Origin: Prochlorococcus sp. AG-418-F16
Lineage (GTDB): Bacteria > Cyanobacteriota > Cyanobacteriia > PCC-6307 > Cyanobiaceae
DNA length: 41,412 nt
Reading direction: 5' to 3'
Assembly: GCA_003214235.1 (NCBI GenBank)
Contig: QCLW01000007.1
Coordinates: 1-41,412, forward strand
How positions within the stretch are numbered: the stretch's first letter is position 1; the number at the start of each line of letters is the position of its first letter. The notes beneath the pieces are model-generated. The model was not told where the DNA came from. It did not search any database and worked only from the letters and a program-made list of their open reading frames with translations. Positions 1 to 8,356 of this stretch are shown here, in pieces. A program made the position numbers and the translations under genes.

Positions 1-121
1 CCATTTATGGTTTTGGGACAAAAATGAAGGATGGAAATTACGTCATACGGTTTTCAATAAAATCAATAACCAAGGAAATGATATTGAAGCAGCCATGTGG
101 GAAGGAAATAAAGCTAAATGA
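1..121 (+). CDS. C-terminal end of a probable N-acetyl sugar amidotransferase (WbpG/WbuX-like), 5' end outside window
   Basis: The frame starting at base 2 is open to a TGA at 119-121 and encodes 39 residues. The visible tail carries an aromatic FWDKNEGWKLR stretch, reminiscent of the end of WbpG/WbuX-type sugar amidotransferases. The stop overlaps the next ATG in an ATGA arrangement, which suggests translational coupling to the HisF-HisH fusion. In O-antigen clusters (WbpG with HisH2/HisF2, or WbuX/Y/Z) such an amidotransferase converts an acetamido group on a nucleotide sugar to an amidino group, using ammonia from the HisH/HisF pair. The family call rests mainly on this context. The catalytic domain lies outside the window. 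Confidence 0.55.
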   Translation, partial: HLWFWDKNEGWKLRHTVFNKINNQGNDIEAAMWEGNKAK

Positions 122-1560
122 GCAGTTCAAAGCGTTTAATTGCTCGTCTTGATATAAAGGGAAAGAGACTTATAAAAGGCATTCGTTTTGAAGGATTAAG
201 AGTAATTGGGGACGCATGTGAAGCAGCTGGAAAGTATGCAGCCAAAGGCGTTGATGAAATATTTTATACAGATGCGGTAGCAAGTCTATATGGAAGAAAT
301 GGGTTAGTCGAAGTTTTGCGAAATACTTCCAAAAAAGTATTCGTTCCAATAACTGCTGGTGGGGCGATAAGAACAGTTGAAGATGGTAGAAAACTTTTGG
401 CTGCTGGAGCAGATAAACTAGCTATAAATTCTGCAGCCATTAGAAATCCTGACCTTATAAATGAACTTTCTGAAAGGTTTGGTAGTCAGTGTGTCGTCAT
501 ATCAATACAAGTCTGTTACTCAACTGAGTCAAGATGGGATGTAATGATTGAGTCTGGAAGAGAAAGAACCAAAAAGAATCTTAATGAATGGGTAATAGAA
601 TGTCAAGATAGAGGGGCAGGAGAGATATTTATAACGTCAGTTGATAGAGATGGTACTGGTAATGGTCCAGATATTAATTTAATATCTCATGTTAAGGATT
701 TAGTAAAAATACCCTTAGTTATTGGAGGTGGCTTTTCGTCTAAAGATAACATTATAGAAGTTTATAAAGATTATAGAAATCTCTCAGGGGTCGCTATAGG
801 TTGGGCTTTACATAATCAAAGAATAAATATTAAGGAAACAAAAGAAAAACTCAAAGAATTAAATTTTTCAGTTAGAGATTTATCAGAAAAAATTACCCTT
901 ACTAATATTAAAGAAAATATTAAAGCTAGCATCATAAATTATGGGATGGGTAATACTCAAAGCCTTATAAATGCATTCAATCACTTAGGAATTGACTGTA
1001 AATTAACGACTGACTTTGAAACTATTGATAACACTCATTTTTGCGTATTACCTGGAGTAGGTGCCTTTCCTGAGGGTATGAGACAACTAAATCACTTCAA
1101 CCTGCTTGAAAAATTAAGAAACTTTAGTTCATCAGGAGGGCGTCTAATTGGAATTTGCCTAGGTATGCAATTACTACTATCAGAAGGAACAGAGTATAAA
1201 AATTGTAATGGTCTAAACTTAATTCGTGGGAAGGTAGAAAAATTACCATCTTTCAATATAAATGGGAAGAAAAGCTTAATTCCACATGTTGGCTGGAATT
1301 CATTAATCTTAAATAATCAAAGTTCTTTAAAAATGCCAAAAGATTTCGAGAACTTATATCAATATTTTGTACATAGCTACGCTTTGATGACTTCAAAAGA
1401 AATTGAAAAAAACATTATTTCTACAACAAATTTCGAAGGCCACTCCTTTGTCTCAATGATAAAAAATAAAAATACTATTGGTATGCAATTTCATCCTGAA
1501 AGGAGTGGGAAAGATGGTTTAAATTTACTAAGTTTTACTTTAAATTCTATTTTAGATTAA
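118..1560 (+). CDS. HisF-HisH fusion, ammonia-supplying subunits for surface-sugar amidation (WbuZ-WbuY type)
   Basis: This 480-residue protein joins a HisF-like barrel (about 1-258) to a HisH-like class I glutamine amidotransferase (about 270-480). The HisH half has a complete triad: Cys347 in GICLGMQ, and His459 and Glu461 in FHPE. The HisF half keeps the first catalytic Asp (ARLDIKGK), the phosphate-site Lys, and the gate residues seen in RLIARLD, VDEIF, ADKLAIN and GAGEI. The second catalytic Asp, in the VAIDA segment of histidine HisF, is Gln131 here (SIQV). Eukaryotic HIS7 has the opposite order, HisH then HisF. I infer that it hydrolyses glutamine and channels ammonia to the amidotransferase encoded just upstream, and does not make histidine. 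Confidence is high on family and moderate on role. Confidence 0.85.
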   Translation: MSSSKRLIARLDIKGKRLIKGIRFEGLRVIGDACEAAGKYAAKGVDEIFYTDAVASLYGRNGLVEVLRNTSKKVFVPITAGGAIRTVEDGRKLLAAGADKLAINSAAIRNPDLINELSERFGSQCVVISIQVCYSTESRWDVMIESGRERTKKNLNEWVIECQDRGAGEIFITSVDRDGTGNGPDINLISHVKDLVKIPLVIGGGFSSKDNIIEVYKDYRNLSGVAIGWALHNQRINIKETKEKLKELNFSVRDLSEKITLTNIKENIKASIINYGMGNTQSLINAFNHLGIDCKLTTDFETIDNTHFCVLPGVGAFPEGMRQLNHFNLLEKLRNFSSSGGRLIGICLGMQLLLSEGTEYKNCNGLNLIRGKVEKLPSFNINGKKSLIPHVGWNSLILNNQSSLKMPKDFENLYQYFVHSYALMTSKEIEKNIISTTNFEGHSFVSMIKNKNTIGMQFHPERSGKDGLNLLSFTLNSILD

Positions 1561-1594: not shown

Positions 1595-2434
1595 ATGCTT
1601 TCAGAATTAGACCTAATACCAAAAGAGTTCGATTGGGTAAAGTACACCAGCTCAAATTATCTTAAAAAAATTCTAAACATTGAAGAGAATATTCAAAATC
1701 TAGATCAAAATTATTCACATCAAATTAACAAAAATGTTGATCCTAATAATCGAATTCCTTTCGCAGCAGAATTTGATGATTTAGCTCGCTTGCATTATAT
1801 TGCTAAAAACAGAAAAGTTACTACTATTCTGGAATTTGGTGTAGGCAAAAGTTCAATAATATTTGCTGATGCTTTAAGAAATAACAAATCAAAATTTTTC
1901 GAATATACATCTAGAAATTTAAGAAAATCAAACTTATATCAATGTTATTCTGTGGATAACAATTCTAAATGGATTAAAATATGTAAAAAAAACGCACCTG
2001 AAGATCTCTTAACCAATAATTTTTTAATTTTTAATAAAGCCCAATTGAAAACATCTGAATTTGTTGGAAGAATTTGTACTTTCTTCGATCCTATTCCTAA
2101 TATATCTCCTGATTTAATTTATTTAGATGCTCCCGATCAGTTCTCAGCTATTGGGAGTATCCGTGGTATTAGTACAAAACATTCAGATCGAATGCCTATG
2201 TCTGCTGATATTATTTCAATTGAACATTTTCTTCAACCTGGAACCTTAATAATTATTGATGGTAGAACAGCAAATGCAAGATTCCTAGAAAAAAACCTTC
2301 AAAGAAATTGGTCTTATTTATATGCAAGAGAATGGGATCAACATTTTTTCGAACTACAGGAAGAACCCTTAGGAATTTATAATGAAAAACATATTGACCA
2401 TTGTCTAGGAAAATCCTTTTATGAAAGATTTTAA
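1595..2434 (+). CDS. Methyltransferase-like protein of the surface polysaccharide cluster
   Basis: This 279-residue protein has no name I recognise. It has the outline of a class I SAM-binding fold: a glycine-containing loop (TTILEFGVGKSS, about residue 90), an acidic residue after strand 2 (YSVDNNS), and a strand-4-like DLIYLDAPDQF. A second hydrophobic strand ends in IIIDGRT. It lies 34 bases after the HisF-HisH fusion on the same strand, with an AAAGGATA Shine-Dalgarno-like sequence ahead of the ATG, so it is probably in the same operon. An O-antigen modification role is inferred from context. It could also be a SAM-fold protein without methyltransferase activity. Confidence 0.6.
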   Translation: MLSELDLIPKEFDWVKYTSSNYLKKILNIEENIQNLDQNYSHQINKNVDPNNRIPFAAEFDDLARLHYIAKNRKVTTILEFGVGKSSIIFADALRNNKSKFFEYTSRNLRKSNLYQCYSVDNNSKWIKICKKNAPEDLLTNNFLIFNKAQLKTSEFVGRICTFFDPIPNISPDLIYLDAPDQFSAIGSIRGISTKHSDRMPMSADIISIEHFLQPGTLIIIDGRTANARFLEKNLQRNWSYLYAREWDQHFFELQEEPLGIYNEKHIDHCLGKSFYERF

Positions 2435-2507
2435 ATAATTTATAGTTATTAATTTGCTCAAAATTCCATCACTACATTATATTTAAAATTAAATAATGGC
2501 TTAATTG

Positions 2508-3230
2508 ATGAACTGGGGGAAAAAAAGATTTTCTGACGATGATATTTATCTTAATGAAGATAGATACAATAATCAAAGACAAGACTTTGAATTAATCTTA
2601 TCAATTATAAAAGAAAAAATAAAAGAACCAGAGGTAAGCATTCTTGACTGTGGTTGCGCAACTGGAGAATTATTATATTTTCTTCAAGAAAATATAATTA
2701 ATTCGAAACTATCAGGATTTGATATATCTGAAAAAATGATAATGAAAGCAAAATGTAAAATGCCCAATGTTAATTACTTTGTACAAAATATAAACACTGA
2801 ATTTCAGAAATGGAAAAAAAAACCAGAGTGTGACATTGTAATTTTATCTGGAGTATTAAGTATTTTTGATGATTTTAAATTTATTTTAAATAATTTAATT
2901 TCCTGTACTAATAAGTTAGGATGTATTATTTTGACAATTATTTATAATAAAGATCCAATAGATGTTCTAGTAAGGTATAAGAGATATGGCTCTGAAGATT
3001 GGGAATGCGGATGGAATACTCCATGTAAAGAATCAATTGAAGATTACCTAAAGAAATCTCAGAAAATTAAAAATTTTGAGTGGAGAGATTTTAATCCAAA
3101 AGAAGATAGAAAAAAAAGAAAAGATGATCCAATGAGAAAATGGACTATAAATCTGAACGGAGAAAAGACAAATATGGTTGGAACTGGACAAATAATAAAT
3201 CAATCATTACTCATAATTAATTTGAACTGA
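2508..3230 (+). CDS. Class I SAM-dependent methyltransferase
   Basis: This is a protein of about 240 residues with a clear SAM-binding motif I, ILDCGCATGELL, near residue 46. An acidic strand-2 motif (SGFDISEKM) and a strand-4 CDIVILSGVLS follow, the pattern of Methyltransf_11/25-type enzymes. I start it at the ATG at 2508; a TTG one codon earlier is also possible. It is the last plus-strand gene of the polysaccharide cluster and faces the convergent 458-residue gene. The substrate is unknown. Methylation of a sugar or lipid in envelope synthesis is the contextual guess. Confidence 0.75.
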   Translation: MNWGKKRFSDDDIYLNEDRYNNQRQDFELILSIIKEKIKEPEVSILDCGCATGELLYFLQENIINSKLSGFDISEKMIMKAKCKMPNVNYFVQNINTEFQKWKKKPECDIVILSGVLSIFDDFKFILNNLISCTNKLGCIILTIIYNKDPIDVLVRYKRYGSEDWECGWNTPCKESIEDYLKKSQKIKNFEWRDFNPKEDRKKRKDDPMRKWTINLNGEKTNMVGTGQIINQSLLIINLN

Positions 3231-3283
3231 ATCTATCTTAAATTGGTATATAGGATTAAAATTTAAGGTTAATTTTGAAAATT

Positions 3284-4660
3284 TTAACAACCGAACAACG
3301 TTTTTATTATTTTTATAATGCCAACTCTCCTAGCTTTTTCATGTATAGAATTTTTTATGGTTGGTAATATTCCATTTTTAACTTCAAAGCCAGAAACACA
3401 TTTATTTTTTAAGCTATTTAAAAAATAATCTGTTGAAGATTGGAAATCTACATTATCTATATTTCTAAGAAAATCTTCTAGACCTTTTGAATCTTTATAA
3501 AAATGACATCCCGAATGATCTCTGAATGAAGAAGGAGCAAAACAAATGCATGGTTTATTTCTTAGAAGTCCTTGAAAACCAACCTTACCATTAAGGGTAG
3601 AAACTATTTTTGTTTGGTCAATTAAATCATAACTTGGGTACATTGGATCGACAAATTCTACTCCTTTTATTGAACTGATAATTTCATAATACTGAGGAGG
3701 TCTAAATCTTGGGTCAATTGGTTTTATATAAGTAGTAGGGTGCTCTTTTACATAAATTTTCATTTCTTTTGGCAAAGTTAGCCTAAGAGTATTGATAGCA
3801 CGTGTTTGTTCAACAAAACTTTTACCCATAGGCAAAGAACTTGACTCCGGTTGATAATGCATAAAATAAACAGCACTATTGTTTTGTATTTTGCTTCCCT
3901 TTTGCATGTTCCTTAAATATTTCTTGAAAATATATTTTGCATATATTTTTTGAACTAACCTTTGAGGTATATGTATAGGTTTGTATATTGAAAATGCCTT
4001 ATATCCATCCAAATTGTACATCCATGTAAGCATTCCTTTTTCATCTCTATGTGAAGAATCAGATCTTGAAGCATTTAAGTAATCTAAAGCATACTTTTCT
4101 GCAGTAATATCAGCACACTCAAATCTGTTATCCAATTCTAAAGAGACTAATTTATCAATTCCCTTATAAATAGAAATGAAGCCTGGTATCGCAGAAATAT
4201 CAAAAATATAAACCTCACCATAGTATATATTCTCTAATATCATCGCTAAAAGCCAAGTTTCAATACAATGAGGGACATTTACAGAAAAAAGATATTTGAT
4301 TTTTTTATCTTCAATATAATTACAACATCCAATAACTAATTCCCTAATTTTTGCCACGTAAAAAATAGAAGAATTTACCCACCTTCTTTCGCATAACATT
4401 ACCCATCTATAATCAGAAAGGATGAAATCTAGAGCTTTTTCATATATATCTACTCTTTTATTTATTAGATGATTAGAAAATAAATTACTTATGTTTGTTT
4501 CTCCCTTTAATTTATAATGCGAGCTGAAATGATTGCTTGTTGGATTTATTAAATTTAAAAATTTAGATAAATTTATTTCACGAAATTCTTCCCATTGATC
4601 AGGACATATTAATACTGAATTACTTAAATTCTCAGGACTACTTATGTAATCAAATCTCAT
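3284..4660 (-). CDS. Capsule polysaccharide/Kdo-transferase-like glycosyltransferase
   Basis: This is a 458-residue soluble-looking protein. The C-terminal half has the signature of the capsule-synthesis (KpsC/KpsS, Pfam Capsule_synth) fold: YFMHYQPE near residue 265, YVKEHP near 302, then STLNGKVGFQGLLRNKPCICF, where a Ser/Asn-Gly-Gly pattern binds the sugar nucleotide. The N-terminal 220 residues are not recognisable. It is convergent with the methyltransferase across about 50 bases and lies downstream of lexA on the same strand, separated by 185 AT-rich bases. It probably transfers a sugar in surface glycan assembly. Donor and acceptor are unknown. Confidence 0.65.
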   Translation of the reverse strand: MRFDYISSPENLSNSVLICPDQWEEFREINLSKFLNLINPTSNHFSSHYKLKGETNISNLFSNHLINKRVDIYEKALDFILSDYRWVMLCERRWVNSSIFYVAKIRELVIGCCNYIEDKKIKYLFSVNVPHCIETWLLAMILENIYYGEVYIFDISAIPGFISIYKGIDKLVSLELDNRFECADITAEKYALDYLNASRSDSSHRDEKGMLTWMYNLDGYKAFSIYKPIHIPQRLVQKIYAKYIFKKYLRNMQKGSKIQNNSAVYFMHYQPESSSLPMGKSFVEQTRAINTLRLTLPKEMKIYVKEHPTTYIKPIDPRFRPPQYYEIISSIKGVEFVDPMYPSYDLIDQTKIVSTLNGKVGFQGLLRNKPCICFAPSSFRDHSGCHFYKDSKGLEDFLRNIDNVDFQSSTDYFLNSLKNKCVSGFEVKNGILPTIKNSIHEKARRVGIIKIIKTLFGC

Positions 4661-6469: not shown

Positions 6470-8356
6470 CTATGCAGGCATTTTACTCTCTGCCAAGAGA
6501 GCTTTGAGATCCTCCCCTTCTATAACTTCCTCTTGAAGAATTTTTTGAGAAATCGACTCCAGAAGAGGCAAATTGTTCCTCAAAATATTAAGTGCAGTTT
6601 CATGCGCATCATCAACTAAATCTCTAACCTCTTTATCAATTGCTTGAGCAGTAGCATCACTAACAGATCTTCTAGGATTATTTCCATTTCCTAAAAACTG
6701 ACCTCCTCCTTGTTTGTCGTAAGCAAGGGGACCAAGAATATCACTCATTCCAAATGTACCAACCATTTGTTCTGCTATATCAGTTGCTCTCTGTAAATCA
6801 TTTGAAGCTCCAGTAGTGATCTTTCCAAATACAACCTCTTCAGCAGATCTCCCTCCAAGAAGTGTAGCTATCTGACCTTTTAGTTCATCTTTGGAATTCA
6901 AAAATCTCTCTTCAGTTGGTAATTGAAGAGTGTAGCCAAGCGCACTCATACCTCTTGGTACAATCGAAATCTTTGCAACTTTTGAACCTCCAGGCATAAG
7001 ATGACCAACAATTGCATGACCCACTTCATGATACGCAACGACTTTCTTCTCATCATCCTGTAAAACCCTACTTTTCTTTTCTAAACCAGCAACTACTCTT
7101 TCTATAGCTTCACTTAAATCTTTTTGTTCAACACTCTTTCTTTTAGCTCTTGCAGCCAATAAAGCGGCTTCGTTTACCATATTGGCTAAGTCAGCTCCTG
7201 CAAAACCACTAGTGGCTTGAGCAATAGAATCTAAGTCTATTGAGTCAGAAAGTTTAATTTTTTTTGTATAAATTTCCAAAATTGTTTTTCTTCCAGACAG
7301 ATCTGGTCTATCAACTAAAACTTGTCTATCAAATCTGCCGGGTCTTAGTAAAGCAGCATCAAGCACTTCTGGTTGGTTAGTAGCTGCAAGGACAATTACA
7401 GGCTTGTCGGCAGAGGCAAACCCATCCATTTCTGTAAGGAGCTGATTTAAAGTTTGTTCTCTTTCATCATTCCCACCGACTACACCCATAGATCCTGAAC
7501 GACTCTTACCTATCGCGTCTAATTCATCAATAAATATTATGCAAGGAGCTTTTTTCTTCGCCTGTTCAAATAGATCTCGAACTCTTGCAGCTCCAGCGCC
7601 AACAAAAAGCTCTACAAATTCAGAACCTGAAATAATGAAGAAAGGGACTTCTGCTTCACCAGCCACAGCCTTTGAAAGAAGAGTTTTTCCTGTTCCTGGT
7701 GGTCCTACAAGAAGTACACCTTTAGGTATTCGCGCTCCTATATCAGTATATCTTTCTGGTTTTTTTAAAAAATCAACTATTTCTGTTAATTCCTCCTTAG
7801 CTTCATCAACTCCTGCTACATCTGCGAATGTTACTTTTGATTCGTCATCTGGTACATATACTTTAGCTTTACTTTTAGTAAAACTTAGAGCACCTTGAGC
7901 ACCTCCGCCTCCCATACTTCTTCTAGCGAAAAATTGTAAGACAAGGATAAAAATCAAAGGAGGAACAACCCAGCTCAATATAGTTGAGAAGAAATTAGGT
8001 TTCTTTGGAGGAGCAGCAGCGAATTCCACCCCTTTACTTTCTAACCTTTGAGGCAGATCCATATCAAAAATTGGGGTTGTCGCTAACACTGAGGGGGCGC
8101 CCTCTTCAGCTCCATTCAACTCATATCTGATTTGTTCTTGGGTAATATATGCTCTCTTTACCTCTCCATCATTAACTTGATCAATAAATAAGGAGTAAGG
8201 GACTCTAGGGATTTGCATATTTTGATTAGGGAAAAGGCTACTAAATAAAAGTAGTGCTCCAACTCCTATCAAAATGATATTTATAATTCCAAATCTTCTA
8301 TTAGGTTGATTATCGTCTTGTCTTATTGGCATAATTGTGAACAAATCTAAACTCAT
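6470..8356 (-). CDS. ftsH: ATP-dependent zinc metalloprotease FtsH
   Basis: This is a 628-residue membrane-anchored AAA+ protease. Two N-terminal membrane segments (about 23-41 and 124-142) flank a short periplasmic or lumenal domain. Walker A is GPPGTGKT (218-225), Walker B lies in [11 protein letters not shown] (about 273-283), and the zinc motif is HEVGH (443-447). Cyanobacterial FtsH proteins degrade damaged photosystem II D1 and other membrane proteins; which paralogue this is cannot be told by eye. The first ATG gives MSLDLF. A second at 8332 gives MPIRQD and is the alternative start. The upstream gap carries the palindrome at 8401-8428. Confidence 0.97.

Follow-up and report, generated by a model that had tools for sequence, protein, structure and literature searches.

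Homologues of HisH and HisF encoded beside sugar amidotransferases are already known (WbuY/WbuZ, HisH2/HisF2), and the family description of WbuZ notes that it occurs alongside homologues of HisH and WbuX. In these trios, WbuX-WbuY-WbuZ and WbpG-HisH2-HisF2 (TIGR03573, TIGR03572, NF038364), the HisH and HisF homologues lie beside a PP-loop amidotransferase in surface-sugar loci, and the ammonia gate is shared with the protein described here. In canonical IGP synthase, ammonia released by HisH travels through the HisF barrel past a gate, a route also named in the title of the PDB entry 1gpw. In the cyclase reaction of T. maritima HisF, D11 is the acid and D130 the base (PMC11350729). Fused IGP synthases, HIS7 or HisHF, are described from eukaryotes, some delta-proteobacteria and two Archaeoglobales; they likewise carry HisH and HisF in one chain, but in the order HisH-HisF and with a role in histidine biosynthesis (PMC1963479, PMC11237513).

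The amidotransferases of these trios use an ATP PP-loop and are considered to ligate ammonia onto the N-acetyl group of the sugar (PMC10607449). The crystal structure of LpNASAT (PDB 8WEX) represents this partner family, with an SGGXDS PP-loop and a tetracysteine zinc site, but it shows the enzyme alone, and HisH is absent as a term from the main text (PMC10607449). A related cluster was described for Legionella serogroup 6, in which HisF4-HisH2 is found in the O-antigen region together with NeuB (PMC3694923). The gene pairs of Rhizobium sp. WL3 (WP_147885244.1, WP_147885245.1) and Azospirillum sp. TSA2s resemble our protein in the hisF-hisH order, with the first catalytic Asp kept and the second replaced. 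They are located beside an N-acetyl sugar amidotransferase and an acylneuraminate cytidylyltransferase, but consist of separate genes and carry Glu instead of Gln. In the part of the matching open-access papers that was covered, neither a fusion in the order HisF-HisH, nor a HisF-WbuX fusion, nor an alternating Asp pattern was reported.

The window, i.e. the whole stretch of 41,412 nucleotides analysed here, forms the beginning of contig C7 in a cyanobacterial assembly of 1.17 Mb (72% complete, 32% GC). ChlG and subunit N of the NAD(P)H-quinone oxidoreductase, each scoring above its cut-off, identify the genome as cyanobacterial, and its small size and low GC suggest the marine Prochlorococcus type. 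On its forward strand it carries an ATG-started, uninterrupted ORF of 480 aa (118..1560) encoding HisF and HisH in a single chain. The HisF-type barrel domain (residues about 4-255, 127..882; PF00977 5.9e-53) is joined to a HisH-type glutaminase domain (residues about 269-478, 922..1551; TIGR01855 172.6 bits, cut-off 105.4) by a linker (883..921), whose length and sequence differ across the 17 fusions found. An AlphaFold model of the two-domain chain reached a pLDDT of 88.7 and a pTM of 0.88. The predicted barrel superimposes on HisF-LUCA (4evz) over 252 residues with a Z of 35.8 and an rmsd of 2.0; the structure-comparison matches shown (Foldseek, VIA-align) span the HisF domain only. Between residues 246 and 290 the sole in-frame ATG, GTG or TTG is ATG277, which lies already within the start of the HisH domain. 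As the natural N-terminus of HisH thus lacks an in-frame start codon, the product is one chain. An assembly or frameshift artefact was ruled out by the 17 separate single ORFs.

The first-pass annotation of this DNA had placed HisF at the N-terminus and HisH at the C-terminus, the reverse of eukaryotic HIS7, and the profile matches agree; the HisH-first arrangement that characterizes HIS7/HisHF is not the one found here. Asp12 (151..153), the first catalytic Asp of HisF, is retained (D in 16 of 17 fusions, E in the one from genome G042). The second is replaced by Gln131 (CAA, 508..510; Q in 17/17), which aligns with the second catalytic Asp of solved HisFs and of the host genome's own canonical HisF. 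Canonical HisF has both Asps, D11 and D130 in T. maritima, whereas the window fusion has Asp12 and Gln131. The ammonia-gate residues Arg6, Glu47, Lys100 and Glu169 are all present. In the HisH domain the nucleophile Cys347 (1156..1158) and His459-Pro-Glu461 (1492..1500) are present, and the triad Cys347-His459-Glu461 is intact in all 17. The same annotation had also pointed out the exchange at Gln131, the retained first Asp and gate, and the full triad; each of these observations was confirmed, including the residue numbers.

Among the described families, the best-scoring one for the HisF part is WbuZ (TIGR03572, 236.8 bits), followed by canonical HisF (TIGR00735, 233.7 bits) and AglZ/HisF2 (NF038364, 174.5 bits), yet all three scores are below the respective cut-offs of 299.7, 294.55 and 310. 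WbuZ/AglZ-type sequences show the opposite Asp pattern, while in comparison with the separate genes of the trios the window has one chain with HisF first. The canonical HisF:HisH IGP synthase (T. maritima 1gpw, HisF-LUCA 4evz) has the same folds, gate and glutaminase triad, but there the second catalytic Asp is not replaced, and the window fusion has no his context.

Since both HisF and HisH are recognisable, the fusion might be taken for a fused and mildly changed IGP synthase that serves histidine biosynthesis in this organism. Furthermore, no separate hisH was found in the 72%-complete assembly, the fused one being the sole HisH above cut-off. However, a canonical hisF with both catalytic Asps exists separately on contig C34 of this genome. 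The search for separate copies suggested in the first-pass annotation was therefore successful for hisF and without result for hisH in this incomplete assembly. Two other genomes bearing the fusion, G042 (100% complete) and G044, possess separate hisF and hisH matches, too. Together with the score below the hisF cut-off, the lack of Asp131 in 17/17 fusions and a WbuX gene adjacent in 16/16 relatives, this speaks against a histidine enzyme. We rejected this identity on the grounds of residues, score, context and the separate hisF, and regard it as very unlikely.

Instead, judged from the sequence and its surroundings, the fusion would with high probability act as a single-chain glutaminase and ammonia conduit for the formation of an acetamidino group on a cell-surface sugar, which in relatives is probably often a nonulosonic acid. 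The first lines of the window contain the end of the expected partner gene, namely the last 39 codons and the stop of a WbuX/WbpG-type N-acetyl sugar amidotransferase (2..121, forward strand), cut by the contig start and assigned by alignment to the WbuX C-terminus of genome G197. The TGA of this fragment overlaps the ATG of the fusion, and an identical 4-base overlap is present in G197. Against the exact C-terminus of the WbuX upstream of the G197 fusion the 39 residues scored 131, the best of 200 shuffles 56; against WbuX of seven relatives they exceeded all 200 shuffles in each case, in G230 narrowly (50 versus 46). It counts against our reading that the partner gene is represented in the window's genome by this 39-residue fragment only: a WbuX search gave one weak match (22.1 bits, cut-off 203.2), the remainder of the gene being beyond the contig edge.

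In the relatives the partner is complete. A WbuX-type gene with an SGGKDS PP-loop adjoins the fusion in 16/16 of them (15 upstream, one, in G230, downstream), and in the nine other fusion carriers of the same genus it is above the TIGR03573 cut-off in 9/9. The association known for WbuZ, with HisH and WbuX homologues alongside, is thus found here with HisH fused, the WbuX C-terminus in the window and whole WbuX in all 16 relatives. A NeuB-type gene was detected in 7/9 fusion loci of the genus (L040, L063, L065, L066, L067, L068, L069), and was seen neither in locus L064 nor in the short L039, nor at the seven fusion loci of other genera (about 4.4 kb each), nor in the window's own 72%-complete genome. 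The proposal of the first-pass annotation, that a single chain supplies ammonia for the amidination of a sugar, is accordingly backed by the adjacent amidotransferases, the partner-gene end in the window, the separate hisF and the NeuB-type genes. Counting against it, NeuB was not seen in the window's genome or at the loci of the other genera, and the PP-loop pattern SGG[KTRQ]DS was present in only 32/57 WbuX-like ORFs in a scan of the genus. Four loci (L213 5635, L228 6942, L229 6996, L230 5612) encode proteins of 611-647 aa with a WbuX-like C-terminal half containing SGGRDS; neither HisF nor HisH was found in L228-L230.

Full-length HisF-HisH fusions were found in 17 cases from 8 genera, all within one cyanobacterial family. 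In the genus of the window they occur in 10/266 genomes, 9 of them (including the window) at E <= 1e-62 and a further one in G042 with 33% identity; beyond the genus, one was found in G439 and six in a family sample of 400 genomes. The 16 further proteins are 31-65% identical to the window fusion. A class-wide sample of 388 genomes yielded G439, from the same family, as the only further full-length match, and the matches in G333 and G359 cover the HisF part only. Outside the family, a scan with the single protein gave no match, and among the best 80 contig loci listed in a further scan none encodes the two domains in one ORF. By tblastn, matches were obtained in 16 of 50,697 records for phages and in 91 of 72,556 for plasmids, all with less than 60% identity. 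Among the 20 plasmid matches listed, the annotated records have separate genes, and most phage matches carry no annotation, so that a fusion may be present among them; at DNA level, no match was obtained in phages.

Such a patchy occurrence, together with a substituted catalytic residue, could be expected from a degenerate duplicate on its way to a pseudogene. Against such decay, the 17 ORFs are intact with all gate and triad residues: Gln131, Arg6, Glu47, Lys100, Glu169, the PGVG motif, Cys347, His459 and Glu461 are found in every fusion, and Asp131 in 0/17. Furthermore, one close pair has a dN/dS of about 0.23 (dN 0.070, dS 0.312), and the partner gene is conserved, so we consider a decaying duplicate extremely improbable.

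The fate of the two Asps separates the HisFs by their genomic context. Those beside hisA in loci from named genomes have Asp at both sites in 48/48 cases, and those of the genus without a nearby WbuX in 27/27, a 28th locus being an amidination gene, which gives 75/75 for canonical HisFs assigned by context. Amidination-type HisFs with HisH in the locus, from all sources, have both Asps in 0/63 readable rows, 3 of which had no WbuX in the DNA examined. Twenty HisFs without clear context were set aside as "other" and excluded from every count, and the residue table of the named genomes does not contain L040 (domain score below 200), which is counted in the tree and among the 17 fusions.

The survey of the genus comprised 46 amidination HisFs in 53 WbuX loci, 14 with HisF first and 32 with HisH first. 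Loci without a detected HisF (L202, L206, L223, L228-L231) were excluded; in L202, L206 and L223 WbuX is at the contig end. HisF pieces below 150 residues were left out as well (the split HisF of L201), and L215 was unreadable at the first Asp. Where hisF precedes hisH, the first site is D in 13 and E in one of the 14 loci, and the second Q (11), S (2) or E (1). Where hisH precedes hisF, the first site is L, I, T or V in 31/31 readable loci and the second D, N or P. Among the 63 rows from all sources, the locus L083 is the one exception to this rule, as hisH comes first and yet the residues are D and E. The equivalent of Gln131 is also present in the unfused hisF-first pairs L041, L071 and L197. 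In the sequences compared, Gln131 is hence one outcome in a lineage in which the second Asp is often Glu, while the sister amidination lineage of the WbuZ/AglZ type loses the first Asp.

Nine unfused hisF-first relatives scored 224.4 to 301.4 against the WbuZ profile, one of them above the cut-off of 299.7. This gene is named WbuZ by NCBIfam by 1.7 bits, and its score lies about 1 bit above the hisF cut-off as well; the hisF-first lineage therefore falls within a known kind. The gate residues are nearly invariant in the other amidination HisFs, with Lys changed to Arg in some. The amidination HisFs of L195 8571(-), L204 8848(-), L196 458(+), L208 8210(-) and L209 8219(-) are more divergent; they carry Ser or Pro in place of the second Asp, and their gate Lys is replaced by Arg. 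In L208 and L209 two WbuX genes flank hisH-hisF, and in L201 the HisF of an amidination cluster is seemingly split into two ORFs (7297-7866(-) and 7910-8164(-)).

A quick maximum-likelihood tree of HisF was calculated from 76 rows, in which the 48 his-operon HisFs were represented by 18 chosen at random and the 17 fusions by 10. Three parts can be distinguished in it: the canonical HisFs (SH-aLRT 85), those of the WbuZ/AglZ type (97) and a further clade (99), which contains the hisF-first genes of the tree as well as several viral and other WbuX-linked HisFs. The ten fusions form one clade (99) beside the unfused G038 and a Pelagibacteraceae pair, both also with Gln. After removal of the two trait columns, a single change is still required for the state of the first Asp, and two for gene order. 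Since the tree asks for no more changes than these, the lost Asp and the gene order characterize two lineages and do not reflect repeated events; the idea that gene order predicts the lost Asp repeatedly and independently is not supported. A single origin of the fusion could not be derived from the HisH half, which does not form one clade in a quick HisH tree (3 changes), although no branch with strong support rules it out. The Pelagibacteraceae locus L071 (7989-9371(+)) has hisF and hisH in a shared reading frame, with a stop and two codons in between and with Gln at the site of the second Asp; it is plausible that this arrangement resembles a precursor of the fusion.

HisF is also found fused to the other neighbour. 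In G271, G287 and G280, all of the same genus, single ORFs encode HisF-WbuX proteins of 701, 701 and 684 aa (L192 6360-8465(+), L193 5628-7733(+), L194 6606-8660(-)), with a separate hisH just upstream. Their HisF half is WbuZ-type, the first Asp being replaced by Leu and the second retained. In the two fusions tested, the WbuX half reached 301.6 and 290.7 against TIGR03573 (cut-off 203.2), whereas the HisF half remained below the WbuZ cut-off (244.0 and 201.5). The two fusion types imply that HisF contacts both HisH and WbuX.

Viral loci from IMG/VR contigs (L151-L164) contain HisF without HisH in 14/14 cases as fetched, together with a WbuX-like gene in 11 and a NeuB-like gene in 8. In L152 (1325-6720(+)) the neighbours of HisF recognised by Pfam are a cytidylyltransferase, a UDP-GlcNAc 2-epimerase-like gene and NeuB. 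The viral HisFs L154 5911, L156 5989 and L164 5992, members of the hisF-first clade located beside WbuX, keep both Asps, unlike their cellular relatives. The host may contribute the glutaminase, or the reaction may run on free ammonia. As these loci have HisF without HisH, HisF may do more than relay ammonia from HisH. It might serve mainly as a scaffold or allosteric switch that joins HisH and WbuX and keeps the glutaminase off until WbuX is loaded; ammonia would then move outside the barrel, or the barrel chemistry would be reused on the sugar. The fact that different lineages have fused HisF to one or the other neighbour and the viral cassettes retaining HisF, with no HisH in the DNA fetched, would agree with such a role. 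The four gate residues, however, are invariant in 17 fusions and almost unchanged in the remaining amidination HisFs, as a channel in use needs, and we rate this alternative as unlikely.

A gated conduit, our preferred reading, would work as follows. HisH would hydrolyse glutamine with Cys347, His459 and Glu461, and the ammonia would cross the HisF barrel past the retained gate. The far end of the barrel, once the cyclase site, would face the docked PP-loop synthetase WbuX, which would use ATP to activate the N-acetyl group of the sugar, so that ammonia displaces the oxygen and an amidine is formed. As cyclase chemistry would no longer be needed in the barrel, one of the two catalytic Asps would be free to change; a gate that is kept and a cyclase Asp that is dropped are what a pure conduit predicts. 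An inability of the fusion to make IGP fits these data. The fusion itself, the residue pattern, the neighbour, the separate hisF and the clade structure are read from the DNA, and from them we infer the path of the ammonia, the docking of WbuX, the loss of cyclase activity and the exact sugar. To our knowledge, the TIGRFAM note on WbuZ states that WbuYZ homologues are non-essential for WbuX activity, which counts against this reading. Going further, we lean slightly towards a general picture in which HisH-HisF-WbuX forms a channelled, three-part amidine synthase. Here the histidine barrel would have turned into a passive, gated ammonia pipe to a docked ATP-dependent enzyme; two lineages would have given up opposite Asps, and the pipe would then have been fused to either end, to HisH in 17 cases of one family and to WbuX in three genomes of the same genus.

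Downstream of the fusion, the window encodes a protein with a weak methyltransferase-like match (1595..2434, forward; PF13578 18.0 bits, below the cut-off of 26.3), a class I SAM methyltransferase with a listed TTG start (2505..3230, forward; PF13847 45.9 bits, cut-off 27) and, on the reverse strand, a capsule polysaccharide synthesis-like protein (3284..4660; PF05159 23.5 bits, cut-off 20). GC content is 27-29% across 1595-4660 compared to 33% across 4846-41412, and the low-GC stretch is the edge of a surface-sugar island. It is followed by ORFs that by eye resemble lexA, argF and ftsH.

For annotators, the Asp pattern offers a residue test that separates amidination HisF from histidine HisF; the hisF-first protein of Azospirillum, for instance, still bears the annotation of an IGP synthase subunit. 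From the two fusion types the order HisH-HisF-WbuX is predicted, and the fusions make the ammonia route to the sugar enzyme testable with one chain and one partner instead of a mix of three proteins. The locus suggests that amidine-bearing sugars occur on the surface of small, probably marine, cyanobacteria, whose surface sugars plausibly matter in the contact with phages.
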